Made by a program: the position numbers and the translations under genes. A DNA stretch of 64,000 bases. Origin: Bolinopsis microptera. Taxonomy: Eukaryota > Ctenophora > Tentaculata > Lobata > Bolinopsidae. The notes below the pieces were generated by a model. The model worked only from the letters and a program-made list of their open reading frames with translations. It had not been told where the DNA came from and did no database searches. The stretch is from the NCBI RefSeq assembly GCF_026151205.1, contig NC_087084.1, positions 14,338,235 through 14,402,234 on the forward strand, given 5' to 3'. Positions 21,078 through 63,000 of this stretch are shown here, piece by piece (position 1 is the stretch's first letter; each line of letters begins with the position of its first letter).

Positions 21078-24000
21078 CTGGAGTTGAAATATTATTGTTA
21101 GCTTAAATTATGTTGGTAAGTTTAGGTTAAGTTTGTAACATATTTCACTGTTCTGTGATAAGGAAAGTAACTGAGCTAGTTCTTTTTGGAGCCAATTCAT
21201 TTAATGACTAATGGGCTGATGAAACATTCATTACAACTTTTAAAATGCTGGTAAAATACTTGCATACAACTTTACCTTGACATTTACGTTCATTCCCTTG
21301 AATCCCTTGACCTTTTCTTTCTTAGGCTTAATATCACAGTCAACAAGTTGTAATGCCATACACGATCCGTCTTGTCCTTTCTCTGTTCCTTCTGTGCACT
21401 CGCAGTGGTAGTTGCCTACTTCATTGAAACAGTCCTACAGGAAATCAAATATTATCACTAAAAAATCTTCAATATAAATATAAATTACTCATTATTCACT
21501 GAACTTTTCAATTTTCATTTTATTTATTTCATTTATTATTAAGAAACTGTTTACACCATTAAAATATTCCAAACTCCTAAAAGAAATCAAGTCATCCTAA
21601 AATGGTGATCAGTACAGATCAAGACAGCTAGAGTTAAAATTTGTTTCTCCAAGCAACTCTATCATCGGCTAATATCTTAAGCTTATTAAGATCATTCAAA
21701 GAGTTAAGTTTTAAACCTCTACGGGTCAAATCATTCACAATAATCTTGAACAAATTCTTACGATGCGCACCGACGCGCCCTTTACAGTTTGTTGTGACAG
21801 CAAACTTTAACGCTAATGCAGCGGGGGAGTCATCAGCACTACGCAAGATATGACCTAGGAGCTTCCACCTTGCTTTAGGGACACGATCTGATAGCTTAAC
21901 TGAGTTACATCTTAGGTATAAGTTTGCATTGGATATTGTTCCATGAGGCCAATAAATGTTCAGTAATGATCTAAGGTGTTTTCTATGGCAAATGTCTAGT
22001 TTTTCTAGTGACTTTGCAGTAGGACACCAACTACTGCAATTGTACATGATGATTGATACAATTTGGGCTTCGTATACTGCTATCTTTCTGGTAACGGAGA
22101 TATTCTGCTGAGACCAGATCTTGGTGAACTTATAGAAGGCATTGTTCCCAGCAATGCATCGAGCAGCTATATCACTTTCACTACACAACAATGACCCAAG
22201 GATCTTACCCTTACGCCAATCTTCATTTCCACGTAACATGGTATCATCACGACCAGGGATTGTTTCCCCAACAGGAGCGAGGAAAACATGGGTAAATTCT
22301 GTTTTCTCTGTGTTAATGAACAGGTTAAACTCCTTGAAGACTTCCTTAGCTATTGGTAGGATAGCTTCTAAGGATTCTTTTTCCACGTTCATGAAGTTAC
22401 AATCATCTGAATACGCTGACTCCAGTGGCATACCTTCTTTTTAAATTTCATTTAATTTATTTTATCACTCTTGTGTATCTTCTTTCCACAATATATTTAA
22501 TTTTAAATACTTTTACCTGGTTTTCTCCACAAGGACTACCCTCACACTCGTCAATATCCACACATTTCCCTTTAATGGGTTACTTGTTACTATGGTTACT
22601 GTTACTTGTTACTATGGTTACTGTTACTTGTTACTATGGTTACTGTTACTTGTTACTATGGTTACTGTTACCTGGTTTTCTCCACAAGGACTATCCTCGC
22701 ACTCGTCGATATCCACACATTTCCCGTCTTCATTTTCATATCCGTCAGTGCACACACAGTCTTTTGTTTTAGGGTCCTTTACAAATGTGTCGAGGCAGTC
22801 ACAGATGAAACTTCCTGTAGTAGATTGGATTTTGTTAATATTATAATTAGTTATGATTAATAATTATATAATTAGTTCGGAGGATGTCTTGGTTTTCATC
22901 AGCAAAAACTGGTAAATCATAAGATTGATGTAACAAAAAAGGTGTTAACAAAAAAGGTGTTATAAAATTATAAACACCGTTATGTGTGTAATAAACATTG
23001 CTTAGAGTTATTGACAGTAACCATAGTAACAAAAACCTTCAACATTAGAACATCTCTCCGTGTCATCACAAGGGGTGTCCAGGCACTCGTTAATATCTTC
23101 ACAGGTCCCGTGAACAAGCTCATATCCTTTGTTGCACTCACATCTAACAAAAGGAATATTTCACGTTAGTTCCAGGTGAGCCAGTATGATTATTAAAAGA
23201 TTAAATTTAAAAAGCATTAAATAATGCAATGTCTTTAAATGTCGTAATTCAATGGTGAAAAGATTTATCTTGTAATCTCACGTTGTGTTATTTCTAAAGT
23301 TTTCACTGCACCACAATGCACCGGAACCTCGCTGTTTACACTAATTCACTAATTAACTAACGTATAAGATCCAAGAGTGTTATACTAATTAACTAATTGA
23401 CTAATTAACTAACGTATAAGATCCAGGAGTGTTATACTAATTAACTAATTAACTAATTAACTAATTAACTAATTAACTAATTAACTAATTAACTAATTAA
23501 CTAATTAACTAATTAACTAATTAACTACTTAACTAATTAACTAATTAACCAATTAACTAATTAACTAATTAACTAATTAACTAATTAACTAATTAACTAA
23601 TTAACTAACGTATAAGATCCAGGAGTGTTATACTAATTAACTAATTAACTAATTAACTAATTAACTAACGTATAAGATCTAGGAGTGTTATACTAATTAA
23701 CTAACGTGTAAGATCCAGGAGTGTTGGTACACTAATTACACTAATTACACTAATTACACTAATTACACTAATAATACTAATTACACTTATAATACTAATT
23801 AACTAATTAACTAACGTGTAAGATCCAGGAGTGTTGGTACACTCTCCATTTCCACAAGGTTCCTCGGGGCACTCGTCCACATCAGAGCAGGTCTCACCAT
23901 CGAACTTGTATCCCTCATCACACAGACACTTGTAGTTGGGACCGTCCTCCTGGCACTCTCCTGAAACGGGGAGTAGGTAATTAGTTGTGGTTAACTATGA

Positions 24001-26309: not shown

Positions 26310-29300
26310 TTAAGAGATAAACATTAAAAATATCTCACATTTAGAGTGTTTAGGCATACAAGTTCCAGCGCTCTCATCGAACTCAAACCCGTCCTCGCAA
26401 TCACAAGTGTAGTCATCAGCCCCAACAGCCTCGCACTCGCCGTGATCTCCGCATCTGATGAGGTGGTGTTGCTATGGTTACATACCATATAAGGTAGTAT
26501 CAGTTTCACAGATAATATATTGGGAATAATAAAGACGAAGTACGGTATTATCCAGATTATTGTGTCTGGTGTTTAGTCGGTGAAGCAACTTCGTTTCTCT
26601 AAACGAATAATCTGTTTAATCTGTGAAAACACATACTTTTACTTACACATATTAATTAATAGTAATACTCGGTCAAATGCGGCTGTAAACACAAGCTCAG
26701 AGCTTTTTCATGACTATAAGATATTACTATAAGACATCATGTATTATAGTACTTTATCAATGTCCGTTAGACTTGTCCGCCAGGTGAAAAATATAGTTAT
26801 CATAATCTAAATTTATGAGCGATTGCTTTGGCAAAAGTTTAACTGATGAAATTGAAGCTAAAAGAAAGGTTTCAAGTTATTCAAACCTGTCGACATCGCA
26901 ACCGGTCTGTTTCTCAGAGCAGAACGGAACCTTAACCTCGGAGTCATCCTCCGCTTCTACCATATCACACACTTCCTCAGCAGCACAGTTCCAACCTTCA
27001 CAGTCCGGACACACCTTCGCTGCGTACGCGTTCCTGGGAGGGAGGGGTTTTACTGGACGTTTTTAGCAAAATTCGTTGCAAGAAACAAAATAGACATGTA
27101 TACGAAAATTTGGAGATTGCAGAGCAAGGGCCAAGGACAGGTTGATCACAGTCACAAATGAATCGAATTGTTCGCTCAAAGGTTCACTGAAAATTGAAAA
27201 AATATGGTATTCACCCTCTTTCCCTTTCCAAATAAAAATGTTTATCACTCACAAGTCATCCATTAGTTTGCAGACGAGGGTTACATCACACCACTTCTGG
27301 TCACTGCAGTTAGGCACAGCACATGCAGCATCGTTAGGAATTACTCCTACACCACTGATTCCTTTGTTTGTGAGTCTGCGAAGATATCAGGTTTATATAA
27401 AGTGCGAAAAGTTCAGGATTTATAATTATATAAAGTTTGAAAAGTTAAGGACTATTAAAAACACCCTGATTTCAGATACTAAGTTTAATATTTGACTGGT
27501 TTTATTCGTTGTATTATTTCATTGAGGTTATAATTCGTCATAGTTATAACTTTATCTCTGTCTTCACCATCTTAATCAGTGATCAGCGTATTAAATTAAT
27601 TAATTAATTAATTAATTAATTAATCAATGTAAAACCAACTTACTGATCCCACCAGAAGGAGTGAGCGTTACAGATGACAGGCTCATAACCAACAGGACAC
27701 TCCAGACTAGGACTGGCTCCCTTACTGTAAAGATGTTTGTATTTCTGGAGTTTGGGTCCGTTACAGGGGTCTCCAATCTGTTCATTCTCTGTGCACACTG
27801 CTTTAGCCTGGTTATGTTTTTAATTGTAAGGAGATGTGTCACAAACTTGAAGGAAATGGAATGAATAAGCACTGTTCACCCATAGCTACACTACTTACAG
27901 TGACACCATAGCAACACTACCTTATATGGTAATGTTACCATAGCAATAATACTTACAATGACTCCAGCACCTCCCCACCCGTTGTAAGCCACACAGATAG
28001 CCCCAGTTTGAGCGTTTACTAATGCTCCATCAGAGTTCACACCAACTTGTCCTGTTGCTACTTCACAGTACGTTACAACCTGATTAGCGGGGTTGCTCTG
28101 TCAATAATGGGGAGTAACTTTAAAAGTTATTTCAGATCGGATTTAAATTAGACTTGGAGTGGTAGACTTGAATTAAAGATCATAGTATGGACTATTTATA
28201 AAGCAATATACATTAGAAAAGGAAACTAAAAGTTGAAACCTTTCCGACAGGACAGGAAGCGGCGGATGTAGCGTCATCAACAGCAGCACTCTTATCACCA
28301 ACAACCTCATCTTCCGAGGCCATGTCCTCAATTACTGGGTCTTTAGGTCCCCATACCTTCAGAGAATGGCTTGTTATAATGAGGAACATGATAACAATCG
28401 TTACACGATGTGTATTTTAGGTCTTGTCCTTTGATCTTGTAGATTTAGAGCATATTAAACACAAAACAGTCTTAAACATTTTTAAAATCCCCAACAAATA
28501 TACCAAAACATTACCTTGACTTCACAGAGGGTGAGGAAAGTTTTGTCGTTAACAATTTTAACAGTCTGTCCCACAGCTCCGTGTCCCTCCTCACACTCCA
28601 CCTCGTACGCGTACTTCATTGGGTTGTACTTGACAGTTCCACAAAGGAAGTCTCCTACGTAAACCTGTCAAAGTTTGCTTTGTTAATTGGTTAATTGGTT
28701 AATTAACTGGGTTTAATTGGTTAATCTCCCACGTCGTTAGAGATTAACGAATGACTAGAGAGGCCTGTGGTATTTCGGGTTGCTGGGTTTAATTGACCAC
28801 TAAAATGCTCATTTGTGATTAAGATGCTTCGATAGTTTCCTCTTTTATATTCCCTGCCATAAAAAACGCCATTTTCTAATTCCTTCTGTGTTTTAGTATA
28901 TTACCTTAACACCATCAATTCGGTCACTACAGCAGTCCATCCTGTTTTTGATCCAGATTTTCTCTACAGCGCAGTTATCCTTCAAATCTACCATCCACCA
29001 TCCAGGTCCTGTAGTGTGTGTACATGTTCCCCTGCGGAGTAATTAATTACAATGAGGCATACAGCATGGTCTATATTCCTAGTTCTTATACCATATCCCA
29101 TACTATAAAATATATCCTTGTGTTTAAAAAGGGAATACGCTACACTCCTCAGTTACTTGGGATAAATTCCTAACAAGGATAGATAAGTCCTATTAAATAA
29201 GCTGTAAATATTTCCCATAGCTCACTTGGAATAAGTGCCGGGCTCTTTACAACTCACTTGGAATAAGTGCCGGACTCTTTACAACTCACTTGGAATAAGT

Positions 29301-32300
29301 GCCGGACTCTTTACAACTCACTTGGAATAAGTGCCGGACTCTTTACAACTCACTTGGAATAAGTGCCGGACTCTTTACAACTCACTTGGAATAAGTGCCG
29401 GACTCTTTACAACTCACTTGGAATAAGTGCCGGACTCTTTACCATCAACAGCCCTGTCAGGAACCCCTCCCCACCCGGTAGATGACTGAGAAGTAGGTTT
29501 CAGGTAGGCCAAGTTCACTAGATTATCCTTTCCCAACTCTGCTGTAGGGTCTGATAATACTTTAACCTGCGAGGGAGGGTAGTTACACGTGGTGTCCGTT
29601 ACATGTTCTGTATTAATTGTAGTGATCACTTGTCTTGATACATGTTTTTATTATCATCAGTTAAAATTAAAAGCTTCAAAGCTAGTTTAATAACTGATGA
29701 GGGGCCATACCTCGCACAGTGTGAGGAACTGTTTAGGAGCAGCTTTAATCCTGATGTTAGTTGCAACCACAGTCTCAACCGTGTCACTTTTACACGCTAC
29801 TTTGTAAACGTCTTGTTTCTCTACATATTTAATAGTTCCACAAAGGAAATCATCTGCGTACACCTGTAAAAGTGAACCATTTGTTAGTGTTGCTATGGTT
29901 ACATTGCCATATAAGGTAGTGTTGCTATGGTTACATTATATGTTAGGCATCTTTTTATATGGAAGCAGTGTGAAAAACTTGGTCTGGTGGGCGAGCAAAC
30001 TCAACATTAATCTGCACCCAGATTTCAGCCGAAATCTTCAATCATGAGGTTATCTTGATGGAGATCTGTTCCGAAATACCGAGTAAATATATTCTCTTCT
30101 CTTCCGATAACGGTATCAATATATAAATTCCTTACCGTGACTCCATCAATCCTGTTTCCACAGCAGTCCTTTCTGTTGTAGATAACCACCTTGGAAACTG
30201 GTACTGGTTCTGGGAATTCCAGGTGCCACCATCCATTGTTAACGTTTCCAGTGTGGGAACAACTTCCTCTGAGGATGAGCAGATTAGTGACAAATTAGTG
30301 ACAAATTAGTGACAAATTAGTGACAAATTAGTGACAAATTAATAACAAAATAGTGACAAATTATTCAAAAATTAGTTACAAATTAATTACAAATTAGTCA
30401 CATAGTTTAATTAATCACAATTCTGTTAATATAACCATTGGAGATAAAGACTGAACATTTAATTTATTCAACCTATTTCATCGTGAATCAAGTTACTTAG
30501 GTAAACTTACTCAGCATATTTAGCTTCAATGTTTCCGTCGATAGCTCTGGAAGCTACACCACCCCAGCCAACTGTAGACTGGGTAGCAGTACCGTCATCA
30601 GCTACATTAATTAGAGCTCCTAGATCATCACTTGGCTTAGCTGGTGGAAGTTAACTTTATATTATGGTAGTGTTACCTTAGTAACATTACCTTATATGGA
30701 AGTGCTATCTTTGTAACATTACCTTATATGGTAGTGTTACTTTAGTAATATTACCTTATATGGAAGTGCTATCTTTGTAACATTACCTTATATGGTAGTG
30801 TTACCTTAGTCACATAACCTTATATGGTAGTGTTACCTTAGTTACATTACCTTAATTGGTAGTGTTACCTTAGTAACATTACCTTATATGGTAGTGTTAC
30901 CTTAGTAATATTACCTTATATGGCAGTGTTACCTTAGTAACATTACCTTATATGGTAGTGTTACCTTAGTAACATTACCTTATATGGTAGTGTTACCTTA
31001 GTAACATTACCTTATATCGTAGTGTTACCTTAGTAACATTACCTTATATGGTAGTGTTACCTTAGTAACATTACCTTATATGGTAGTGTTACCTTAGTAA
31101 CATTACCTTATATGGTAGTGTTACCTTAGTAATATCACCTTATATGGTAGTGTTACCTTAGTAACATTACCTTTAAATATGGTAGTGTTACCTTGGTTAT
31201 AATGTGAGTTATGGGCACTGGCATATACTCTTACCTTCTTAGAACTGAGTAGGTACATAAATCTAGCTTAGGAATTAGGTAGAAATCCGAAATTGACAAC
31301 CGTTCCCAAAACACGATATAAATGAAGACAAGATTTGTTTTAAAGCTGTTTTAAAACTGACAAGATCTGTTTAAAGCTGTTTACTCACCAAGAACTTGGA
31401 CCTCACACAGAGTCAGATACTGTCCGTCCTGGGTGACACTGACCTTGGAACCACTGGCTCCGTTACAGTTAACACGGAACACACTGTTACTGGCTATATA
31501 CTCCACTGCACCGCACAGGGTGTCGTCAACATATACCTGGGGGAACACACTGTTACTGCCTATATACTCCACTGTACCGCACAGGGTGTCGTCAACATAT
31601 ACCTGGGGGAACACACTGTTACTGGCTACATACTCCACTGCACCGCACAGGGTGTCGTCAACATATACCTGGGGGAACACACTGTTACTGGCTACATACT
31701 CCACTGCACCGCACAGGGTGTCGTCAACATATACCTGGGGGAACACACTGTTACTGGCTACATACTCCACTGCACCGCACAGGGTGTCGTCAACATATAC
31801 CTGGGGGAACACACTGTTACTGGCTACATACTCCACTGCACCGCACAGGGTGTCGTCAACATATACCTGGGGGAACACACTGTTACTGGCTATATACTCC
31901 ACTGCACCGCACAGGGTGTCGTCAACATATACCTGGGGGAACACACTGTTACTGGCTACATACTCCACTGCACTGCACAGGGTGTCGTCAACATATACCT
32001 GGGGGAATACACTGTTACTGGCTACATACTCCACTGCACCGCACAGGGTGTCGTCAACATATACCTGGGGGAACACACTGTTACTGGTTATATACTCCAC
32101 TGCACCGCACAGGGTGTCGTCAACATATACCTGGGGGAACACACTGTTACTGGCTATATACTCCACTGCACCGCACAGGGTGTCGTCAACATATACCTGG
32201 GGGAACACACTGTTACTGGCTATATACTCCACTGCACCACACAGAGTGTCGTCAACATATACCTGGGGGGAACACACTGTTACTGGCTATATACTCCACT

Positions 32301-35300
32301 GCACCGCACAGGGTGTCGTCAACATATACCTGGGGGGAACACACTGTTACTGGCTATATACTCCACTGCACCGCACAGGGTGTCGTCAACAAATACCTGG
32401 GGGAACACACTGTTACTGGCTATATACTCCACTGCACCGCACAGGGTGTCGTCAACATATACCTGGGGGAACACACTGTTACTGGCTATATACTCCACTG
32501 CACCGCACAGGGTGTCGTCAACATATACCTGGGGGAACACACTGTTACTGGCTATATACTCCACTGTACCGCACAGGGTGTCGTCAACATATACCTGGGG
32601 GAACACACTATTACTGGTTATATACTCCACTGCACCGCACAGGGTGTCGTCAACATATACCTGGGGGAACACACTGTTACTGGCTATATACTCCACTGCA
32701 CCGCACAGGGTGTCGTCAACATATACCTGGGGGAACACACTGTTACTGGCTACATACTCCACTGCACCGCACAGGGTGTCGTCAACATATACCTGGGGGA
32801 ACACACTGTTACTGGCTACATACTCCACTGCACCGCACAGGGTGTCGTCAACATATACCTGGGGGAACACACTGTTACTGGCTACATACTCCACTGCACC
32901 GCACAGGGTGTCGTCAACATATACCTGGGGGAACACACTGTTACTGGCTACATACTCCACTGCACCGCACAGGGTGTCGTCAACATATACCTGGGGGAAC
33001 ACACTGTTACTGGCTACATACTCCACTGTACCGCACAGGGTGTCGTCAACATATACCTGGGGGAACACACTGTTACTGGCTATATACTCCACTGCACCGC
33101 ACAGGGTGTCGTCAACATATACCTGGGGGAACACACTGTTACTGGCTACATACTCCACTGCACCGCACAGGGTGTCGTCAACATATACCTGGGGGAACAC
33201 ACTGTTACTGGCTATATACTCCACTGCACCGCACAGGGTGTCGTCAACATATACCTGGGGGAACACACTGTTACTGGCTATATACTCCACTGCACCGCAC
33301 AGGGTGTCGTCAACATATACCTGGGGGAACACACTGTTACTGGCTATATACTCCACTGCACCACACAGGGTGTCGTCAACATACACCTGGGGGAACACAC
33401 TGTTACTGGCTACATACTCCACTGCACCGCACAGGGTGTCGTCAACATATACCTGGGGGAACACACTGTTACTGGCTACATACTCCACTGCACCGCACAG
33501 GGTGTCGTCAACATATACCTGGGGGAACACACTGTTACTGGTTATATACTCCACTGCACCGCACAGGGTGTCGTCAACATATACCTGGGGGAACACACTG
33601 TTACTGGTTATATACTCCACTGCACCGCACAGGGTGTCGTCAACATATACCTGGGGGAACACACTGTTACTGGCTATATACTCCACTGCACCGCACAGGG
33701 TGTCGTCAACATATACCTGGGGGAACACACTGTTACTGGCTATATACTCCACTGCACCGCACAGGGTGTCGTCAACATATACCTGGGGGAACACACTGTT
33801 ACTGGCTACATACTCCACTGCACCGCACAGGGTGTCGTCAACATATACCTGGGGGAACACACTGTTACTGGCTATATACTCCACTGCACCACACAGGGTG
33901 TCGTCAACATACACCTGGGGGAACACACTGTTACTGGCTACATACTCCACTGCACCGCACAGGGTGTCGTCAACATATACCTGGGGGAACACACTGTTAC
34001 TGGCTACATACTCCACTGCACCGCACAGGGTGTCGTCAACATATACCTGGGGGAACACACTGTTACTGGCTACATACTCCACTGCACCGCACAGGGTGTC
34101 GTCAACATATACCTGGGGGAACACACTGTTACTGGTTATATACTCCACTGCACCGCACAGGGTGTCGTCAACATATACCTGGGGGAACACACTGTTACTG
34201 GCTACATACTCCACTGCACCGCACAGGGTGTCGTCAACATATACCTGGGGGAACACACTGTTACTGGCTACATACTCCACTGCACCGCACAGGGTGTCGT
34301 CAACATATACCTGGGGGAACACACTGTTACTGGCTATATACTCCACTGCACCGCACAGGGTGTCATCAACATATACCTGGGGGAACACACTGTTACTGGC
34401 TATATACTCCACTGCACCGCACAGGGTGTCATCAACATATACCTGGGGGAACACACTGTTACTGGCTACATACTGCACTGCACCGCACAGGGTGTCGTCA
34501 ACATATACCTGGGGGAACACACTGTTACTGGCTACATACTCCACTGCACCGCACAGGGTGTCGTCAACATATACCTGGGGGAACACACTGTTACTGGTTA
34601 TATACTCCACTGCACCGCACAGGGTGTCGTCAACATATACCTGGGGGAACACACTGTTACTGGCTACATACTCCACTGCACCGCACAGGGTGTCGTCAAC
34701 ATATACCTGGGGGAACACACTGTTACTGGCTACATACTCCACTGCACCGCACAGGGTGTCGTCAACATATACCTGGGGGAACACACTGTTACTGGCTATA
34801 TACTCCACTGCACCGCACAGGGTGTCGTCAATATATACCTGGGGGAACACACTGTTACTGGCTATATACTCCACTGCACCGCACAGGGTGTCGTCAACAT
34901 ATACCTGGGGGAACACACTGTTACTGGCTATATACTCCACTGCACCGCACAGGGTGTCGTCAACATATACCTGGGGGAACACACTGTTACTGGCTATATA
35001 CTCCACTGCACCGCACAGGGTGTCGTCAACATATACCTGGGGGAACACACTGTTACTGGCTACATACTCCACTGCACCGCACAGGGTGTCGTCAACATAT
35101 ACCTGGGGGAACACACTGTTACTGGCTATATACTCCACTGCACCGCACAGGGTGTCGTCAACATATACCTGGGGGAACACACTGTTACTGGCTACATACT
35201 CCACTGCACCGCACAGGGTGTCGTCAACATATACCTGGGGGAACACACTGTTACTGGCTATATACTCCACTGCACCGCACAGGGTGTCGTCAACATATAC

Positions 35301-38300
35301 CTGGGGGAACACACTGTTACTGGCTACATACTCCACTGCACCGCACAGGGTGTCGTCAACATATACCTGGGGGAACACACTGTTACTGGCTACATACTCC
35401 ACTGCACCGCACAGGGTGTCGTCAACATATACCTGGGGGAACACACTGTTACTGGCTACATACTCCACTGCACCGCACAGGGTGTCGTCAACATATACCT
35501 GGGGGAACACACTGTTACTGGCTACATACTCCACTGCACCGCACAGGGTGTCGTCAACATATACCTGGGGGAACACACTGTTACTGGCTACATACTCCAC
35601 TGCACCGCACAGGGTGTCGTCAACATATACCTGGGGGAACACACTGTTACTGGCTATATACTCCACTGCACCGCACAGGGTGTCGTCAACATATACCTGG
35701 GGGAACACACTGTTACTGGCTATATACTCCACTGCACCGCACAGGGTGTCGTCAACATATACCTGGGGGAAGACACTGTTACTGGCTATATACTCCACTG
35801 CACCGCACAGGGTGTCGTCAACATATACCTGGGGGAACACACTGTTACTGGCTATATACTCCACTGCACCGCACAGGGTGTCGTCAACATATACCTGGGG
35901 GAACACACTGTTACTGGCTATATACTCCACTGCACCGCACAGGGTGTCGTCAACATATACCTGGGGGAACACACTGTTACTGGCTATATACTCCACTGCA
36001 CCGCACAGGGTGTCGTCAACATATACCTGGGGGAACACACTGTTACTGGCTATATACTCCACTGTACCGCACAGGGTGTCGTCAACATATACCTGGGGGA
36101 ACACACTGTTACTGGCTATATACTCCACTGCACCGCACAGGGTGTCGTCAACATATACCTGGGGGAACACACTGTTACTGGCTACATACTCCACTGCACC
36201 GCACAGGGTGTCGTCAACATATACCTGGGGGAACACACTGTTACTGGCTATATACTCCACTGCACCGCACAGGGTGTCGTCAACATATACCTGGGGGAAC
36301 ACACTGTTACTGGCTATATACTCCACTGCATCGCACAGGGTGTCGTCAACATATACCTGGGGGAACACACTGTTACTGGCTATATACTCCACTGCACCGC
36401 ACAGGGTGTCGTCAACATATACCTGGGGGAACACACTGTTACTGTCTATATACTCCACTGCACCGCACAGGGTGTCGTCAACATATACCTGGGGGAACAC
36501 ACTGTTACTGGCTACATACTCCACTGCACCGCACAGGGTGTCGTCAACATATACCTGGGGGAACACACTGTTACTAGCTATATACTCCACTGCACCGCAC
36601 AGGGTGTCGTCAACATATACCTGGGGGAACACACTGTTACTGGCTATATACTCCACTGCACCGCACAGGGTGTCGTCAACATATACCTGGGGGAACACAC
36701 TGTTACTGGCTACATACTCCACTGCACCGCACAGGGTGTCGTCAACATATACCTGGGGGAACACACTGTTACTGGCTACATACTCCACTGCACCGCACAG
36801 GGTGTCGTCAACATATACCTGGGGGAACACACTGTTACTGGTTATATACTCCACTGCACCGCACAGGGTGTCGTCAACATATACCTGGGGGAACACACTG
36901 TTACTGGCTACATACTCCACTGCACCGCACAGGGTGTCGTCAACATATACCTGGGGGAACACACTGTTACTGGCTATATACTCCACTGCACCGCACAGGG
37001 TGTCGTCAACATATACCTGGGGGAACACACTGTTACTGGCTACATACTCCACTGCACCGCACAGGGTGTCGTCAACATATACCTGGGGGAACACACTGTT
37101 ACTGGCTACATACTCCACTGCACCGCACAGGGTGTCGTCAACATATACCTGGGGGAACACACTGTTACTGGCTACATACTCCACTGCACCGCACAGGGTG
37201 TCGTCAACATATACCTGGGGGAACACACTGTTACTGGCTATATACTCCACTGCACCGCACAGGGTGTCGTCAACATATACCTGGGGGAACACACTGTTAC
37301 TGGCTACATACTCCACTGCACCGCACAGGGTGTCGTCAACATATACCTGGGGGAACACACTGTTACTGGCTACATACTCCACTGCACCGCACAGGGTGTC
37401 GTCAACATATACCTGGGGGAACACACTGTTACTGGCTACATACTCCACTGCACCGCACAGGGTGTCGTCAACATATACCTGGGGGAACACACTGTTACTG
37501 GCTACATACTCCACTGCACTGCACAGGGTGTCGTCAACATATACCTGGGGGAACACTCTGTTACTGGCTACATACTCCACTGCACCGCACAGGGTGTCGT
37601 CAACATATACCTGGGGGAACACACTGTAACTGGCTATATACTCCACTGCACCGCACAGGGTGTCGACAACATATACCTGGGGGAACACACTGTTACTGGC
37701 TATAAACTCCACTGCACCGCACAGGGTGTCGTCAACATATACCTGGGGGAACACACTGTTACTGGCTATATACTCCACTGCACCGCACAGGGTGTCGTCA
37801 ACATATACCTGGGGGAACACACTGTTACTGGCTATATACTCCACTGCACCGCACAGGGTGTCGTCAACATATACCTGGGGGAACACACTGTTACTGGCTA
37901 TATACTCCACTGCACCGCACAGGGGTTAGGCTTAGCTATCAATTGTATCATGTTACTTTTGAATTTACAAAGGAAACATGTGTAACAGTTACAGCGTGAA
38001 ATCGATTTTTTAACAGGGAAATTAAGTTCTCGATATCCTGATGAAGTGAGTAACCAGATGTGAATTATTAAATAAATCTAACTCAATAACTGCAACATCT
38101 CCCTAACCTTAGCGCCGTTAATTCTGTTCTGGCAACAGTCCAACCTGTTGTAGATAACAACAGCGTCCACATCAAAGTGGTCCAGTAAGTCCACCTTCCA
38201 CTGATTGAAGCCAGCGTTGGCAGAGTGGGTACAGGTTCCCATAGCCCAGATACCACTACTCTTCCTGTCTACCCCTCGTGATGCTACCCCGCCCCACCCG

Positions 38301-41300
38301 ACACTGCTACTCCAAGCAGGCATTCCTGGGTAGTGGTAACTATGGTTACTTGGTTGTGGTAACTATGGTTATTTGGTATAGATACCACTGCTACTCCAAG
38401 CAGGCATTCCTAGGTAGTGGTAACTATGGTTACTAGGTAGTGGTAACTATGGTTACTAGGTAGTGGTAACTATGGTTACTTGGTATAGATACCACTGCTA
38501 ATCCAAGCAGGCATTCCTGGTATTAACTAAACACAGAACATAATTGGCAAACAAAATTTAAAAAGTTAGAAAAAAATCACGTTTCGGTCCCGGTCAAAAT
38601 TCGGACCGGGCCCGGGATTAAGCCGGGATCCCGGTCGAACCTTGGTTGTAGTGAAACGATTTATAATTGGCGGTTGAGATCTCTGATGATAATAATAGAG
38701 GGTCTCACAGTATTTCCACTCGAAACAGCAGGAGTCGTAAGAAACGGCTTATTTTTTAAACTTACCTGCAGCGACATTGGTGAGCGGTGTTTCCTCGGTT
38801 TCCTGACCGTACGCCTGCACCTCACAAAGGGTAAGGTAGTTGTAGGGCAAGCTCACCTTGATAGCTCCTCCTACAGCTCCTCCACAAGATACCACGTACT
38901 TACTCTGTCCAGCTTTGAAGGCTACCTCTCCACACAGCACAGCTCCTACATATACCTGGGGAGGGGTTATAAAGGGTTATAAAGGGTTATAAGGGGTTAT
39001 AAGGGGTTATACGGGGTTATAAGGGGTTATAAGGGGTTATAAGGGGTTATAAGGGGTTATAAGGGGTTATAAGGGGTTATAAGGGGTTATAAGGGGTTAT
39101 AAGGGGTTATAAGGGGTTATAAGGGGTTATAAGGGGTTATAAGGGGTTATAAGGGGTTATAAGGGGTTATAACTATAAGGGGTTATAAGGGGTTATAAGG
39201 GGTTATAAGGGGTTATAAGGGGTTATAAGGGGTTATAAGGGGTTATAAGGGGTTATAAGGGGTTATAAGGGGTTACAAGGGGTTATAAGGGGTTATAAAG
39301 GGTTATAAGGGGTTATAAGGGGTTTAATGTAGGGGTTATAAGGGGTTATGAGGGATTATAAGGGGTTTAATGTGGGGGTTATAAGTGGTTTAATGGAATT
39401 TATTGGGAAGCATAATGAGGTTGTAACACGTTACATATAATAATAATAAAATGAAAGGAGAATGTTGTTACGTACCCTAGCGAGGTTTATTCTGTTCTGA
39501 CAGCAGTCCTCCCGATTATAAAGGACAACTCTGTCTACTTTGTACATTCCGTCAAGTTTTACCCTCCACCAGTTATTGATGTTAGAGGAGGTGTGTGTAC
39601 AGGTTCTGAACAGCAAAAAAACGATTATCATATGCATATAAACGTATGTATAATTAAATATATTATCCAATTGATGATCAAAATTAGTTGATGATGAGAA
39701 AACCTTTTTATTAATCGGCTTCCTGTAATTGGCCGGTTATACTTGTGTAAAAATGGGCCTGTTGAAATATCCGAAATAAAATAAGCGTTAGATTTTTAAA
39801 AATCGAGGTTTGCCAAATTCAACTGAATTAATCCAAAGACGATTAAACCAAGATGAGTATTATGTAATCGATTTTACATTTCAGGAAGCCATACATTAAG
39901 CTTATTCAATAATAACGATCAGTCTTGAATACTTAATTAAATTTTACGAAGTGTATTTTTTGTAAATAACTAACCCAGCTGGCCATTGCCCGTTTGTGTT
40001 TCCATCAATTGCTCGTGCGGCAACTCCACCCCATCCTACATTGTTTTGGGTGGCTACAAGATCCTTCGTCAGAATGTTAACCTCAGGCTCGTCCTCATCC
40101 TCACCCTCACCCTCACCTAGGGGTTTCTCTCTGATAATGGTATTCCACAATATAGGCACTCCGCCTGCCTTCAGCGCTGCTCCCCCAAACACTTCAAACT
40201 TTGTAGCACCGCTGTAGGCCTGCCTCTTTGGGAAGTTAACTCCAGGCATTACCTCCCCGTTAAAAGACGCAATATACTTATCCTCCAACACTGAAACGGT
40301 GATTTTGAACTCTTTGCCCGCTTCGAAAGCTGGAAGGGGTGCTCTCAGCTCTCCCTGCCAATTTGCATTCTTTCGAGAGTTCATAACTAGGATGCTTCCA
40401 TCCCCAGCGGGCCTGAAAGCCATTCTGAAGAGGTAGTTAGATGCACTGTCCTTGATGTTCATTCCGAACCTGGCGACAGCTGGTGTAAAAACACCGGAGT
40501 ATGTGATCTTGTCTCCAACCTGCAGACCGCCGAGTCCTTTGCTTGTTTGTCCTGGGGCAGGATATGGTAGAGAGCTTTAGTACTTAAGGTTACTGTTTAT
40601 AAGAGTTTCTGCTAGGAATATCACTTTTTGGGTAGTCCTTGTGAAACACAAGGTTTTATCTTTTGACCCCCTTTGAGACCAGGAGTTGCCTAGCTAAGCG
40701 GGTTTTTTTACTGCTGTTATCTACTGTTCAACAATACTGAAAGCTTAGTCAAATAACTAAATCTTTGCGGAGAAGTGAGTATTATAAAATAATAATTAAT
40801 TAATACAATAAAAATATAAAAATTGTGAAGATATGAATACCTGCTAGAACTGGGACTTTTGGAGCGTTGTAAGGTGTCTTGTAGATGTTTTGTGCTTTAT
40901 TTGTTCCAAGTACTTGGTCATCAAATACACTGATTTGACTTAGTTTTCCGGGTAACTTGACCCATTTAGTACCTGGCGAGGATGTATTACTTTTAGATAA
41001 TAATATAAACCTTTTAGATATAGTCAGAGTTTAGTTATGTTCTGTATGCCATAAAATCAATCAAATCTGTGGACACAAATGATAATGACTATACTCACGA
41101 TTACAATAAAAAGGGTATTAAAGCTGGAGAATTTACCTGTGGGGGCGGCGTTGCTGATTCCCTCCCGGTAATATATGTCATCAGCTGCATTCACTCCGAC
41201 CACAATGTCTCTTCCTGAAGCTATCCACTTCAGCTTTCCTGGCACCAACACCCACTGTAAAAGTGGGACAGTTAGAACTTTAAGCTTTTGTAGTAGTTGT

Positions 41301-42971
41301 ACAGCAATAGTAAGACCTCGTTATTAAGCTTTTGTGTATAAACATTGCAGAACAACAAGCTACAGACAGGGGTCACTGGAGAGGTCTAATACACCGGAGA
41401 AAGGAGTTACTATGTGGTGCAGGCCACTCCAACGACTAGGAGGAGACCTTTCCAAGTACAAGTAAGTAAGTATAAACATTGCGTTCTCTGTAACATTGTC
41501 CAGAGTCGACTAACATTGTCCAGAGTCGACTTGGCACTATTTCACTTCCAAAGACAAATAAAAAGATCTGAAGAATATCGTGAATGAGATGATCATCCGC
41601 AACATGAGAAACATAACACATACGGGATCTTATTGTGCTACAGTTGTACATTTATCAAACTATCATTTTTTAAATTCAAAAATCCAAATAAACATTCCAT
41701 CAATGTATTACAGTTAAATTTACAAAAGACCACAATATCTCCTGTGAGGCAAAAAACATGGAAAATGAGAGCTAGAAAAATATTCGTGCGAGACTCAACA
41801 CTACCAGTACCAGACTGTAGCTGGAGTGGTAAACATTATGTAAAACATCATAGTAAACTTTATTTGCACATACAGCGACAGACGAACCCCGAATAACTGG
41901 GTTTTACTTTTAAGGGAGATCAGAGATTTAGGAAAGGACAAAAAACCCCGTAAATGGGTGGTTAGGCGTAACGTTGCCCCTCCCCCCCCCTACACTTACA
42001 GTGGTCCCCCCTCCCCCCCCCCCTACACTTACAGTGGTCCCCCCCACTACACTTACAGTGGTCCCCCCTCCCCCCCCCACTACACTTACAGTGGTCCCCC
42101 CCCCCCCTCCTACACTTACAGTGGTCCCCCCTCCCCCCCCCCTACACTTACAGTGGTCCCCCCTCCCCCCCCCCCTACACTTACAGTGGTCCCCCCCCCA
42201 CTACACTTACAGTGGTCCCCCCTCCCCCCCCCACTACACTTACAGTGGTCCCCCCCCCCCTCCTACACTTACAGTGGTCCCCCCCCCACTACACTTACAG
42301 TGGTCCCCCCTCCCCCCCCCCTACACTTACAGTGGTCCCCCCCCCACTACACTTACAGTGGTCCCCCCCCCCCCACTACACTTACAGTGGTCCCCCCCCA
42401 CTACACTTACAGTGGTCCCCCCCCCCCCCCCCACTACACTTACAGTGGTCCCCCCCCCCCACTACACTTACAGTGGTCCCCCCCCCACTACACTTACAGT
42501 GGTCCCCCCCCCCACTACACTTACAGTGGTCCCCCCCCCCCCCCCCACTACACTTACAGTGGTCCCCCCCCCCCCACTACACTTACAGTGGTCCCCCCCC
42601 CCACTACACTTACAGTGGTCCCCCCCCCCCCCCACTACACTTACAGTGGTCCCCCCCCCCCCCCACTACACTTACAGTGGTCCCCCCCCCCCCCCCCACT
42701 ACACTTACAGTGGTCCCCCCCCCCCCCACTACACTTACAGTGGTCCCCCCCCCCCCCCCACTACACTTACAGTGGTCCCCCCCCCCCCCACTACACTTAC
42801 AGTGGTCCCCCCCCCACTACACTTACAGTGGTCCCCCCCCACTACACTTACAGTGGTCCCCCCCCCCCCCCACTACACTTACAGTGGTCCCCCCCCCCCC
42901 CCCACTACACTTACAGTGGTCCCCCCCCCACTACACTTACAGTGGTCCCCCCCCCCACTACACTTACAGTG

Positions 42972-43003
<32 letters not shown>

Positions 43004-46000
43004 ACTACACTTACAGTGGTCCCAGAAATGTTGTTATCACCACGTGTTCCGGCTCTGTAGTAAATGTTGTTTGCTGAGTTGACTACCCACACTCCTGCCA
43101 TTCCAACACTGCGCAGATAATTATGTTAATTATTTCATTTTTATGCTAATTAATTGAGTGATTAATTAAGTTAGTTATTTTTGTAATTAGCGTAAACAAA
43201 TTGCTGAAATAATAATTACATATTTTCTTATAGATCCTTAATTTTTAACCTTTGGTGATAATTTTACTGAACTCTGTATGGTGTTTAACTGAATCGGAAA
43301 TGTTCACCAAAAACTACGGCTACAAATCAAAAACAGCACCAGTATAGCAATTTACCAGTTTGATACTCTTACACTCCTATTTACAAGTATATAACACTAC
43401 ACTATTTCCCACTATTTACTGTACCTGACTTCTATAGCTTTCCCTTGGATTTCCTGCCACGAGTCACCTCGCCTTCTATAGATGCTGCCGGCTCCGTTGA
43501 CTCCCCAGACATTTCCATTATCGCTCACATCAACCTGAAGAGGTTCAATATTAGAGGGGATCTTGAAACATAGACGAGTCCACTCAGGTACTTGTAGTCA
43601 CTAATCTATAATGTGATGAAATCAAGCTTCTAAATTCGGGATAGCCTGTAGCAGGCAACGCCCGATTCTAATGCTTCTGCAGACCTACACAAGTGCAAGT
43701 AAGTAGGTAAATATTTCATGCTAGGCATGTGGCACCCATCCATTGAGCTATTACTCACGTTTATGAGTTGGCCGGGGATTGTTTGCCATTTGTTATCTCC
43801 CAGGTACTTGTAGATTTCACCTGGAGATCCCTGAATTTTGTTAACTCCCCACACCTCGGATCCTGACGCCACGTGGGTTAAAGCTTGTCCGGTTATTTGG
43901 GTCCAGCTTGCTCCTGATGGGGTGTAATTAGTTAATTAGGGTGTTTAGGGTGTAATCAGTTAATTAGGGTGTTTTGGGTGTAATTAGTTATTTACCTAAT
44001 TAGGGTGTTTTGGGTGTAACTATTAGTTAATTACTTAATTAGGGTGATTTGGTTACTTTGGATATTTCGGGTATTTTTAGGAATTTTTGGGTATTGTTTG
44101 GCATTTTTGATCGGTAGTTCGACATTAACCAATGAATAAATAAATAACAGAAGAGAATTTGCTCCTTTTGTGAAACTGTCAATTTTGTTTACGTGTCCTA
44201 ACAATCATTTTTCACATCAAGTAAATGTAACAAATGTAACAAATGTAACAAATGTAACAAATGTAACAAATGTAACAAAAGATAATTAGTAATTAGTAAT
44301 TAGTAATTAGAAATTTGTAATTTGTAATTTGTAATTAGTAATTAATAATTAGCAATTACCGTCCTCATTAAGCTTGTAGACGTTTCTACCACTGTTGACA
44401 CCCCACACTCCAGACTTCCCCTTGTTGATCCTTGTAAGACCCCCTGCAATCTGCGTCCATGCTCCCTCAAGCTTAGCTGAGTAAAATAAGTTCTTTTTTG
44501 TTTTTTTAATAGGAGAAATTCAGGGACCAAGTATGATCAATGATCATTGATCATGAGTCGGCTGTATGAGTTCACTATTCTGGCAAAAGTTTGAATATTA
44601 AAGGATTCCCCTTTCAACCTTGACTATAAGATGGAACCAGAATCAATATCATTTTAATTGTCAATAAGCAAGTTGGTGCTAGAATTCTACTAAGTTGACG
44701 GTGCTAACCGGGACAAGTAGCACTATCTAGCACTAAAAAATCAGCTATGTAGCGGCTATGTAGCGGCTATGTAGCGGCTATGTAGCGGCTATCTAGCAAT
44801 AATAAATCTACACCAAATTTCATTAGATAACAGGAAAAATAAGTACATGCTCTTGAATGCCTCCAAGCGATCACTTCAATCACCGTCAATCAATGTTTGA
44901 TAAGATAAATAATGTAAATGATAAGAAATTTACCCTTAGGACATTTCATATTCCTACTGTTAACCCCGTTCATAGATATGGATTGAGCCTCACTGAACTC
45001 TCTGTTCTTGAGGAAGCACCTTAAGGTGGACGGTTGGTGGGTAAGGGAAGCACACCCGGTCTGGGCAGTACACAGAGCTTTACACTTCACTATAGAGACC
45101 ACGTTAGGTACCTGAGATTATAGAGGCAACGTTAGGCACCTGAGATTATAGAGACCACGTTAGGCACCTGAGATTATAGAGACCACGTTAGGCACCTGAG
45201 ATTATAGAGGCCACGTTAGGCACCTGAGATTATAGAGGCCACGTTAGGCACCTGAGATTATAGAGGCCACGTTAGGCACCTGAGAATATAGAGGCCACGT
45301 TAGGCACCTGAGATTATAGAGGCCACGTTAGGCACCTGAGATTATAGAGACCACGTTAGGCACCTGAGATTATAGAGACCACGTTAGGCACCTGAGATTA
45401 TAGAGATCACGTTAGGCATCTGAGATTATATTTATAGAGACCATGTTAGGCACCTGAGATTATAGCGACCACGTTAGGCACCTGAGATTATAGAAGCCAC
45501 GTTAGGCACCTGAGATTATAGAGACCACGTAAGGCACCTGAGATTATAGAGACCATGTTAGGCACCTGAGATTATAGAGACCACGTTAGGCACCTGAGAT
45601 TATAGAGACCACGTTAGGCACCTGAGATTATAGAGACCACGTAAGGCACCTGAGATTATAGAGACCACGTTAGGCACCTGAGATTATAGAGACCACGTTA
45701 GGCACCTCAGATGTGGTTTGGAGTGAAAAGAAAAGTTTCATTTTTTTCCGATCCATTTCTTTTCTCGGCAAAGCTGCCTAAAAAGCTATTATTAAGGAGA
45801 AAGTGGATGGAAAACTTTGTAGGATAACGATCAGGTTATATGAAAGATCTCATACCATTTTTATGTCAGATCCACGGAAATCGGCGTTTTCTTTTACACA
45901 TCCATCCTCTTTCATGAAAATAACAAGGATAAAAAACGACAATTTGAATTACACCGATAAAAATCACAACGATAACATTTTAATTGTAATTGTAATAACT

Positions 46001-51200: not shown

Positions 51201-51561
51201 TTCTTTTTTGGATTTGTTTCACTGCATCCCCTTTCATCTAAATCTGTATTCAGACAGTCCAACTCACCGTTGCAAGTAAGACCTAAGTTTTCTAATTGAT
51301 ATTCCAGAACGGCAAAGCCATAAAATTGTTCTAGCGCGCACAAATAGGTTCCACAAAGAATGTGGCCGTTTGTTGACGGGACAAATGACCAATAACCACA
51401 ATTTTGATAAAAGTGTGGATCTTTTGAACATATACCTGACCTAAGTCCGTCCGAATTTTCCCAATAGTATTCCTCGCTGTTGTGACATTTGTAGAGCTTA
51501 TAGGGCCAATTCCGACACACCTGTCTTAAGAATCCATTCTCTTCTCTAAAGCTGCATTTAC
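48249..51561 (-). CDS. LDL-receptor-repeat class A GPCR (LGR/GRL101-like), one frameshift
   Basis: One long exon (acceptor TTTCAG|GTAAATGC at 51561) encodes a cysteine-rich ectodomain. LDLa repeats include CDGKDDCPDRSDE, CDLTDDCGDGSDENSC and CDGSFDCLDLSDEC. A seven-helix domain follows from about codon 518 of the 983-codon frame (LAIFANLVIL, GDLLVGGYLFVISIYD, SMTRIYGI in place of DRY, TM7 SVINPLIYD, an NPxxY form). The layout fits relaxin-receptor/GRL101-type receptors. No leucine-rich repeats are seen. The upstream frame (RNWPYKLYKCHN...GCSETNPKK) ends in TGA at a run of six A, and one more base would join the frames. This is an assembly error or a true lesion. Earlier exons with the signal peptide were not found. 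Confidence 0.85.
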
Positions 51562-52499
51562 CTGAAAGGATTTTTTTAAATTCATGATCGTTTAGTGTGC
51601 ACTATATGTTTTATACCTTGACGAAAAATGAGCCGGTGAATATCATCACTACTCAAAGGCGAGGAAAATAATATGATTTGAATTTTCATTACACACCATC
51701 TATGTCTCCGCAAAAATGCACACACCCCAATTAATTTCGCGGTTTGCAATAACATCTTTCAGACTTCCTGAATTCAAAGTATTTTTTATCAGTATTTTAT
51801 CAAAACCCATAATTGGGTAGAGTGGACTGCTGCTAATGTCGTTCTTTCGGACAAATTGCTTAAGTACCGTTTTGAAAATACGGGTTTTTCGGTCTCGCTT
51901 TTTGTTTTTGGTAAAAAAATATCCCCGATGACCATTGGATACATTCACCGACGCACTAAAACCCCCTTTGGAACCCCCGAAAAGCCAAAAAGCTTTTACT
52001 CATTCTGAGAAAATGCTTAAGTAACAAATGGGAAAACGAGCGCCGTTTATTTCAATCATTTTGCCTTTCGGGAACTATAATATCATTGTTTTTTGGGTCA
52101 AAAACTGGCCTATGACGGCAATTTGTGTTCTATCTGTTTCCCGGAAAATATTTAGTGATAAGATTTTGAGAAAACTGGCGCGTTTTCCGTGTAATCGTAA
52201 TTGTTCTGAGTTATTACGGAGTGGGATTTGCCACAGGATCAAGTGAGTATCTGAAAATAGCCAACTAATCCGGACGTTTACCAATCTCAGTAGTTTTCAG
52301 GAATAGGCATCGATTGGTGATGGTCATAAACTTCAGAAACGCTAGCTTCACCGTCAAAATTGCCGATTTGTCAATGCAGAACGTTTCAAAATATACGTCA
52401 TAATTTGCTTTACAAATTTTTATTCTCTTATAAGTTGAGACTGGCGGGATTATTGACAGGCAAGGGAACATTACCAAAGAGATAGAAGCGATTTGCCCT

Positions 52500-60050: not shown

Positions 60051-63000
60051 CTATCGGTGAGACCAGTAGTGTTTGGGGGTGGTGATTGAGGCACCCGGGT
60101 TCCTGGCCTGATCCATCCCTCGTTGTATGCTGCTTTGTGGCATCATTGCAGCTTGACCTTGACTCTGAAGATAAAGCTTGTGTTAGTCCTCTGATCTGGA
60201 GTACTTACGACAGGGACACTTTCAAAAAGTTTAACCAATGCTTATATAAAAGTTACTTTTGTAACACTGAGTAAGTGAATATTCATTAGAACACATCTCC
60301 ATGACCATTTGAGCATGGTACAAAGATGGCCATGCTGAAAAACATAGACCTCTGTTACACGTGCAGTAGCGCAATTGCAGTAGTGCACGTGCAGTAGCGC
60401 AATTGCAGTAGTGCACGTGCAGTCGCGGTTCCACATAAAGTTATACCTGTTGCATGTGCTGGATATAGTTAGGAAACTGCATGTAACCCATGTTAAACAC
60501 GTTCTTATCTCCCATCATCTTGGTGTAGTCGTTAGCAGTGGTAGCAGCCGGCAGATGGGATATACCTGGGGTATCAAATTAGAGGGTGTTTAGAGGGGTT
60601 TACACTTTACCTGGGGTATCAAATTAGAGGGGCTTCTAGAGGGGTTTACACTTTACCTGGGGTATCAAATTAGAGGGGCTTCTAGAGGGGTTTACACTTT
60701 ACCTGGGGTATCAAATTAGAGGGGCTTTTAGAGGGGTTTACACTTTACCTGGGGTATCAAATTAGAGGGGCTTCTAGAGGGGTTTACACTTTACCTGGGG
60801 TATCAAATATAGGGGGCTTTTAGAGGGTTTACACTTTACCGGGGGGGTATCAAATTAGAGGGCTTCTAGAGGGGTTTACACTTTACCTGGGGTATCAAAT
60901 TAGAGGGGCTTCTAGAGGGGTTTAGAGATGGATATACAATACATTTAACATGATATTGGCACTTCGAGGCACCCAGTTATTGGATGTCCGATGGCTATAG
61001 CTGTATAGAGTTATGTCCTGTTACTATGAATAACTGATGAATAGATGTCCTGTTATAGTTACTATGAATAACTGCTCAATAGATGTCCTGTTACTAGATG
61101 TCCTGTTACTAGATGTCCTGTTACTAGATGTCCTGATAAAAGTACCCACCGGGATGTTTGGCAGCTGCAGTCCCTCCGTACAGTTCCTTGTAGTCTGACT
61201 CATACTGTCCGAATTGAGAACTGGCTGTCTCGGACGAACCAAATGTGTTCGTTGCGGGGTAACTCGGCCTGAGAGAGATGACCCAATTAGTGAATTAGTA
61301 AATCAATAGAATATTAGATATAATATAGATAAGTAAATTAGTGTATAAATGTATCATCAAAATATGAAAATAATCTCAACGAACACAAGAAAGTTAAAAT
61401 GTTTCTAAAAAACCACTCACACACTGTGAGACTGTTTCTGGGTCTGCGCGTAGTTGAGCTAACCAGGTAACTAAGTAACCAGGTAACTAAGTAACCAGGT
61501 AACTAAGTAACCAGGTAACTAAGTAACCATGTAACTAAGTAACCATGTAACTAAGTAACCAGGTAACTAAGTAACCAGGTAACTAAGTAACCAGGTAACT
61601 AAGTAACCAGGTAACTAAGTAACCAGGTAACTAAGTAACCAGGTAACAAGTAACCAGGTAACCAGGTAACTAAGTAACCAGGTAACTAAGTAACCAGGTA
61701 ACTAAGTAATCAGGTAACTAAGTAACCAGGTAACTAAGTAACCAGGTAACTAAGTAACCAGGTACCTAAGTAACCAGGTAACACACAACAACAAGAAAGT
61801 TTAAATGTACTCACACGCTGTGAGACTGTTTCTGGGTCTGCGCGTAGTTGAGCGCAGCGGGACTGAAGGGGTGCGCGTAGTAGTTAGCAGTGTAGAGGTT
61901 GTTAGGATAAGGGTGTATGGGGTGGGGGTAGTGGTACCCCAGCAGGGGTCCGGGGTAACCACCGCTTAGTCCGGTGGGGGCTGCAGTGGTGGAGGATATT
62001 CCTGATGTTATCCCTGCTCCTACTGTGGGAAGAAGGGGTTACAGCGGGTAATTTAGGTTTATTATTTAAAGGATTGTTTTCCGGAATCCTTGAGAAATTA
62101 ACTGTGAATAGCTTTGAAGAATATTAAGAGAAATATCTTACTTTCATACTGGGTCGAAATTAACAGAATTATCAATAAGTTATAATACAACTCGTTGTCT
62201 CCTGGAGTATATAAGTTTACAAACCATGAGGAGGCTGATGTGAGTTGGAGGATAGTTGTAACTCGCTATTCCTGTGACTGCTGTAGTGTTTCTCCTGACT
62301 CACTCCAGAGCTGAACCCACTGCTCTCAGCTGGGTGCTGTTGCTGAGCTTGTTGCTGCTGCTGAGCCTGTTGCTGAGCTTGTTGCTGAGCCTGTTGCTGC
62401 TGCTGAGCCTGTTGCTGCTGCTGAGCTTGTTGCTGAGCTTGTTGCTGAGCCTGTTGCTGCTGCTGTTGCTGAGCCTGTTGTTGCTGAGCCTGTTGCTGCT
62501 GCTGAGCCTGGAACAATAATTTGGGTTAACTTTTGAATCAGATATTACAATGTGTTTTCTGTAAAGGACAGAGTTCCTAACACACCCTCTCCACAAGGAA
62601 ACACACCTGTCTCTGAGGATGGTGCACGTCGAAGGAGCTGCTGTTGCTACTGCTGTAATATCTCGACATATCGTAACTCATACCACTCGACTGTGTCTGA
62701 ATATTTCAAAGTGATGGTTGGGAACTGAGGCCAGGGAGAGTAAATTTCAAGTCAGCCATACTTTCTTAATTCTAGAACAAGAAAAAGTAGTAAACTGATG
62801 ATTTATCACCGAAAATTTAGTGAACGATTTTAAATCCAAATTCCGAGAACACTAAATAAAGATACATTGGGAAACTGCCCAAAAAGAATACCAACCTGCT
62901 GCTGAGCCTGATGCTGCTGAGCCTGATGGTGAACACTGCTAGCAGCACTATCCCCATAGTACATACTACTACCGCTACTTCGCAGATTACTTGTGGGGTA

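Follow-up and report, generated by a model that had tools for sequence, protein, structure and literature searches.

How does a gene tolerate 97 nearly identical copies of one of its own splice acceptors, set one behind the other? The question is raised by a 64,000-nt stretch of the genome of the ctenophore Bolinopsis microptera (contig NC_087084.1, positions 14,338,235 to 14,402,234; hereafter the window, with coordinates counted from its first base), in which a lectin gene on the minus strand carries a 66-nt tandem array across the boundary between intron 14 and exon 15. We propose that the array is probably a splicing-masked minisatellite, which grew within the intron from a junction-crossing tandem duplication and is kept out of the mRNA by the presumed use of the exon-adjacent acceptor at 31536. 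The locus is a natural test of spliceosome choice among 97 near-identical acceptors whose main difference is where they lie, and first-come use, exon definition and recursive removal each predict different products from it.

The lectin gene and its 66-nt array

Joining the 21 exons of the lectin gene across GT-AG introns gives a single frame of 1087 amino acids without a stop. The encoded layout comprises a signal-peptide-like start followed by PAN, tectonin propeller, galectin and F-type lectin (FTL) domains, with Pfam matches to PAN_1, Tectonin, Gal-bind_lectin and F5_F8_type_C_2. Among solved structures, the best match of FTL domain 2 is FBP32 (3cqo, E 2.6e-26). For exon 4, the acceptor TATAG|TGAAG fits, and CTCAG|GTACC was ruled out by phase. 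Array limits are those of Tandem Repeats Finder (TRF). The relevant features are as follows.

28515..46721, minus strand: lectin gene, exons 1-21, placed by GT-AG boundaries and phase; the gene continues downstream
38108..38325, minus strand: exon 14, first part of FTL domain 2, ending AAG|GTTAGG in phase 0
37925..38107, minus strand: non-repeat part of intron 14 on the donor side, 183 nt
31476..37924, minus strand: minisatellite across the splice junction, with a 66-nt unit and 97 CAG|GT junctions; the final copy forms the start of exon 15
32263..32396, minus strand: two 67-nt units (84 and 85, starting at 32396 and 32329), frame-shifting for every acceptor upstream
31389..31536, minus strand: exon 15, second part of FTL domain 2 (VYVDDTLCG...), acceptor CCCCCAG|GTATATG, donor TTG|GTGAGT

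Intron 14 is 6571 nt long, and TRF describes its array with a period of 66, 97.7 copies and 98% matches, which is the head-to-tail repetition of highly identical units of about 10-100 bp that defines a minisatellite. Each unit consists of the final 7 nt of intron 14 (CCCCCAG) and the initial 59 nt of exon 15, which opens GTA TAT GTT (V Y V). Because the unit contains both an intron end and an exon start, the duplication crossed a splice junction. Parsing of the minus strand yields 97 CCCC(C)AG|GT junctions from 37874, on the donor side, to 31536, the true exon start, at spacings of 66 nt (94 of 96) or 67 nt (2 of 96). CAG|GT is intact at 97/97 junctions and supplies the AGGT that characterizes dual-specific splice-site arrays. 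Such a series of 97 near-identical units cannot be due to chance.

An earlier note, made from the sequence alone, had described these 97 tandem junctions and had read each 66-nt unit as at once an in-frame exon piece and a GT-AG mini-intron, and the parse bears this out, the mini-intron being a potential one. Its generalizations hold for most units: the start GTATATG occurs in 93/97 (GTGTATG in two, GTATTTG and GTATATA in one each), and AGTAAC, claimed for each unit, is present in 94/96 and altered in 2/96. The extent that it gave, 31486..37923, does lie within the array, whose TRF limits are slightly wider and whose upstream edge is a partial unit at 37924/37925.

Relative to the unit consensus there are 22 distinct base variants, one of which (G/A, V/I) is present in 52/96 units, and the exon 15 copy matches a common unit type exactly over 59 nt. 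A genome search with two units, which omits very common words and returns lower bounds, gave at least 95 matches, every one at the lectin array locus. The copied junctions suggest how a coding exon may become homogenized along with an intronic array.

Is the AG|GT configuration itself a product of the array? The comparison covers 28 FTL paralogue loci outside the window, the best of the matches listed. Eight were set aside without a scoring acceptor at the VYV exon, although some read AG|GT too; in the other 20 such an acceptor was scored, and 19/20 of these exons begin with GT. An acceptor-spanning array is present in 0/20 of them, and an array edge lies within 15 nt of the acceptor in 2/20. 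AG|GT is, judging from these paralogues, an old, inherited property of the FTL exon, and the array is a local novelty. A large cluster of F-type lectin exons is also found on contig C1 (3474000-3517000), where the VYV intron is not evident in several copies.

The choice of acceptor determines the reading frame. With exon 14 joined to 31536, the frame is open through 21 exons with the expected domains, which supports masking and agrees with the earlier claim that acceptor #1 gives a normal F-type lectin domain. In the frame read from each acceptor to the end of exon 15, the 12 exon-proximal acceptors (31536 to 32262) stay open, and whole-unit skipping preserves the frame among them. The other 85 of 97 cross one or both 67-nt units and, because of these two units, run into a stop, as the earlier note had anticipated for distal acceptors. 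It was also right that each additional unit adds 22 residues, in a range that extends from acceptor #2 to #12 rather than to #11. The variants within units comprise 8 synonymous, 14 non-synonymous and 0 stop changes, against about 5.7, 15.7 and 0.7 expected without constraint; no sign of coding constraint on the repeats is seen among these 22 distinct variants, a small number.

Splice signals were scored with donor and acceptor matrices built from the 20 introns of the lectin gene, the acceptor matrix including that of exon 15. The acceptor score is 9.77, in the middle of the range, for 92/97 array junctions and lies between 8.43 and 11.02 for the remaining five. The donor-like CAG|GTATAT, present at 94/97 junctions, scores 6.97, exceeding 5/20 real donors of the gene, and by this score it could work as a donor. 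RNA structure that masks the inner acceptors was considered and found unsupported: three folded units are less stable than their shuffles (z +2.1), so no structure hides splice sites there.

Arrays at other splice junctions

The lectin array is one of several in which repeats meet a splice junction. The window contains the following others.

38302..38522, minus strand: second acceptor-spanning array of the lectin gene, at exon 14, TRF periods 84 and 107 with about 2 copies each, reaching 24 nt into the exon
29221..29442, minus strand: donor-spanning array at exon 19, 32 nt x 6.9, reaching 25 nt into the exon, with TTCCAA|GTGAGT copied
41977..43023, minus strand: array across the donor of exon 8, unit variable (TRF 33 nt x 34.4), with GGGACCACT|GTAAGTG copied; the TRF end is 43003, 11 nt inside the intron, and the continuation over the donor as far as 43023 was added by eye
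45091..45712, minus strand: array abutting the acceptor of exon 4, 28 nt x 22, units with CTAAC, a pyrimidine stretch and AG
60563..60924, minus strand: acceptor-spanning array of a different gene, 46 nt x 7.9, in which CCCCAG|GTAAAGT units run up to CCCCAG|GTATATCCC; it overlaps its exon by 3 nt, with exon boundary and phase judged by eye
23340..23814, minus strand: array beside a donor of an EGF-like gene, in TRF rows 23340-23725 and 23728-23814, donor 23815 placed by eye

No GT follows the AG in the array at 38302. The array at 23340-23814 contains a copy of the exon-end piece AACACTCCTGGATCTTAC.., and the EGF_CA match of its gene is below the family cut-off (E=0.0012).

Outside the window, a gene with a Sushi match on contig C1 (402-408 kb) has a 26-nt array that ends exactly at an acceptor, with a one-base overlap; a second array, of 37-nt units, crosses a donor. 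A retroelement-like frame lies within the 26-nt array at about 404.0-405.3 kb and splits it in two. Slices of 10 kb, each at base 6,000,001, were sampled from seven contigs. In the slice of contig C6, one array lies across a donor (43 nt x 46.7), another lies across an acceptor (69 nt x 9.4), and a third, with 9-nt units, starts at a donor. The exon behind the 69-nt-array acceptor matches Cep192_D5 (E 4.4e-12), and the other two arrays presumably belong to the same CEP192-like gene. In the other six slices, where exons were judged by eye, no junction-crossing array was recognized by eye.

With abutting arrays left uncounted, ten arrays cross or copy a junction, at donors and acceptors, in the lectin gene and four others. 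Their unit length is a multiple of 3 in two (66 and 69) and not in six (26, 32, 37, 43, 46 and 52); of the remaining two, one shows periods of 84 and 107 and the other a variable unit.

Do such arrays require a special origin? In a founder null, founder units were placed at random in the introns of the lectin and sushi genes, both of which had been reached through their arrays. The units of compound arrays were chosen by the analyst from TRF rows, the sushi 26-nt array was counted as one despite the insertion and with its one-base exon overlap, and the exon 11 start used was 23 nt off in an intron without arrays. Junction-crossing arrays number 4 of 14 in the lectin gene (acceptors at 31476 and 38302; donors at 29221 and, with its edge extended by eye, 41977), or three by TRF edges alone. 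Over both genes 6/24 cross where 4.6 are expected (P 0.31); once the two arrays through which these genes were reached are set aside, 4/22 cross, compared with 4.1. Random duplication combined with tolerance is thus enough to explain the junction-crossing arrays. The simplest reading is a minisatellite-rich genome that tolerates duplications across junctions because they are hidden by splicing; a bias of arrays towards junctions may exist.

Two further comparisons do not enter this argument. The pattern CAGGTN{46,76}YYYYCAGGTN{46,76}YYYYCAGGT has 1290 + 1871 = 3161 genome hits, compared with 116 + 185 = 301 for the reversed control. This count was not used as enrichment, because hits overlap, places are listed only for the first of them, and a 76-nt array at C1:459 kb contributes heavily among these. 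That array extends from 458928 to 466075 or farther and sits just upstream of what looks, by eye, like a retroelement frame with CCHC-type motifs. Nothing was drawn from an edge-motif orientation test, which is weak and relies on the lectin gene matrices: donors in the expected versus opposite orientation number 15 versus 7 at other loci (n=108 array-strand pairs), 4 versus 3 in the whole window (n=102) and 2 versus 3 once the lectin gene is taken out of the window (n=74), and acceptors number 1 versus 0, 4 versus 2 and 0 versus 2, respectively.

Explanations for the copied acceptors

In the explanation that we favor, a 66-bp tandem duplication across the intron 14/exon 15 boundary would have copied the whole 3' splice region, namely the AGTAAC branch-point-like site, the GTGTGTTCCCCC pyrimidine stretch and CAG|GT, and growth to about 97 copies and then homogenization would have followed. 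The surplus copies would stay intronic and harmless because the exon-adjacent acceptor still yields normal mRNA. Exon definition, our preferred mechanism, would favor acceptor 31536 because the consensus-like donor TTG|GTGAGT is located 148 nt away, and the farther upstream the acceptor, the longer the exon that it would create. Occasional slippage to one of the eleven acceptors that come next would lengthen the product by 22 residues per unit, and use of the remaining 85 would lead to a stop and probably to nonsense-mediated decay, unless the regenerated AAG|GTATAT were spliced again. Masking is further supported by the 85 acceptors that yield no open frame, by the lack of any sign of coding constraint and by the same junction architecture elsewhere with units that are not divisible by 3 (46 nt at 60563, 32 nt at 29221, and 43, 37 and 26 nt). 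The duplicated donor and acceptor sites of several genes point to a way in which exon edges can tolerate repeat expansion. A silent array was among the options of the earlier note, and we judge it to be right or nearly so, with acceptor use itself presumptive.

Could the copies instead be removed one after another? In a recursive, dual-specific splicing ladder, an acceptor transcribed first would be used, AAG|GTATATG would re-form a 5' splice site, and stepwise removal down to 31536 would deliver a normal mRNA. The donor score of CAG|GTATAT at 94/97 junctions and the mid-range score of the commonest acceptor are consistent with a ladder, and in human UBC tandem AGGT sites work in both roles, as 5' and as 3' sites (PMC10809524). 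However, a 66-nt unit is about half the length of the shortest of the 20 lectin-gene introns (122 nt), and if that intron is a guide, jumps of two or more units might be needed. Sister arrays whose units measure 26-46 nt, or in which no GT follows AG (38302), would be unworkable unit by unit, and AG|GT was inherited from the FTL exon and is hence no sign of design. We regard a ladder, although it is the chief alternative, as unlikely. The earlier note had likened the junctions to the recursive (ratchet) sites of Drosophila, and the arrangement of a 3' splice site followed immediately by a possible 5' splice site is indeed alike. Nevertheless, ratchet sites are single sites in very long introns, with the consensus GTAAGT, which the array sites (GTATAT) do not match. 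Moreover, ratchet sites subdivide introns that are long in their own right, whereas intron 14 has 183 nt outside the array and is made long by the identical tandem copies themselves, so that the likeness is a resemblance only.

Alternatively, several of the 12 in-frame acceptors might be used, and FTL domain 2 would then be functionally polymorphic, with between 0 and 11 additional repeats of 22 residues. The 66-nt unit and the 12 open acceptors would permit such a length-variable protein, which the earlier note had raised, but the variant counts give it no support through any sign of constraint on coding sense. The insert would also interrupt the FTL domain, between GAK and VYV in the alignment with FBP32 (3cqo), the two frameshifting units persist, and 6 of the 10 junction-crossing or junction-copying arrays have units that are not multiples of 3; this explanation appears very unlikely. 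Even less credible is an assembly artefact in which the copy number has been collapsed or inflated. Long arrays are difficult to assemble, but scattered variants occur in a definite order among the units, the flanks are unique, like arrays exist in other contigs, and an assembly error would not create a junction-spanning unit.

Some observations weigh against the splicing-masked minisatellite. Its central step, the use of acceptor 31536, is one that we infer. The 97 acceptors are nearly alike, and 37874, being nearest the upstream donor and transcribed first, would be favored under first-come splicing. In addition, arrays that cross a junction or lie within 15 nt of one number 14/24 compared with 7.9 expected under the founder null (P 0.007), or 12/22 compared with 7.0 without the two lead arrays (P 0.02), and this excess indicates that chance placement may explain only part of the pattern. 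It sits in the lectin gene (9/14 versus 3.7, P 0.003) and not in the sushi gene (5/10 versus 4.2, P 0.42). A null that moves each whole array within its own intron gives, for the same 15-nt limit, 9/14 versus 1.75 (P < 0.0001) and 5/10 versus 2.68 (P 0.06), respectively; the founder null was preferred over this one, which gives smaller P values. A more far-reaching proposal, which we consider distinctly improbable, is that minisatellites in this genome arise preferentially at splice junctions by a mechanism linked to transcription or splicing, that ladders of copied donors or acceptors are consequently present in many genes and that AG|GT ladders are removed stepwise by recursive splicing. If that were true, coding sequence would be shielded from repeat expansion and introns would grow out of exons.

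Known systems and further observations

How does the lectin array compare with published systems? Human UBC (9 monomers) and VCX3A (8 repeats) have dual-specific AGGT sites in tandem repeats, and removal of expansions by splicing is argued there to spare fitness (Duan et al. 2024, PMC10809524). As in the lectin array, AG|GT recurs in every unit, and a unit may be an exon piece or an intron. Unlike the lectin array, UBC consists of nine whole ubiquitin monomers, and its splicing has been demonstrated (PMC10809524); the lectin array repeats a 22-residue domain fragment over 97 junctions at the 3' end of an existing intron, is mostly out of frame and is known from sequence alone. In potato RdRp, transcript evidence documents intron gain via a duplication across an intron-exon boundary, which includes the branch site, pyrimidine tract and 3' splice site as in the lectin gene, and fission yeasts are cited there for introns that span a 24-bp segment present in two and in four copies (PMC4974935). 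The potato case involves one duplication, in contrast to the 97 junctions of the lectin array and the similar arrays at donors.

Expansion of human minisatellites, with units of about 30 bp and 4 repeats on average, lengthens exons and introns and can activate splice sites (PMC2812944); expansion is likewise tied to a change in gene structure, but those minisatellites are not arrays of copied junctions. The C. elegans intronic minisatellite CeRep25B, found near alternative exons, is similarly linked to splicing decisions but is a dispersed satellite with a presumed regulatory role and no copied splice junction (PMC4039745). In the ctenophore Hormiphora, which has 13 chromosomes, TRF marks 13% of the genome as repeats (PMC8527503). 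Dual-specific AGGT repeats with fitness sparing (PMC10809524) and intron gain by boundary-crossing duplication (PMC4974935) are already in print. Searches of the open-licence literature gave no paper on copied splice junctions at such a scale, and PMC12221973 contributed nothing on the subject.

Smaller features accompany the junctions of the window. Short-unit arrays at 44283-44358, 38962-39367, 30283-30402 and 43920-44052 start or end 1-14 nt from donors or acceptors, and some of them repeat a branch-point-like TAAC or CTAAT. At 22460-22740 on the minus strand, an EGF-like exon end (GKCVDIDECE.SPCGENQ) is present twice, about 155 nt apart; a 22-nt GTAACAGTAACCATAGTAACAA array occupies the stretch between a donor-like CAG|GTAACA and the second copy, so that the exon end has been duplicated along with a spacer made of the array. 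At 61408-61860 on the minus strand, a second exon-end duplicate (GCTCAACTACGCGCAG...CACAG) flanks a 16-nt array (61460-61782) on both sides.

The palindromic motif GTTACCATAGTTAC, which we take to be X-box-like, recurs with its relatives in introns, at 26468, 27934, 29889, 30672-31152 and 38339-38469 of the window and in the sushi gene on contig C1. Motifs of this type number 26 in the window, 14 in 6.4 kb of the sushi gene and 1 in the remaining loci checked. Finally, a gene with LDL-receptor-A repeats and a rhodopsin-type GPCR region occupies 48249-51601 on the minus strand in long open frames.

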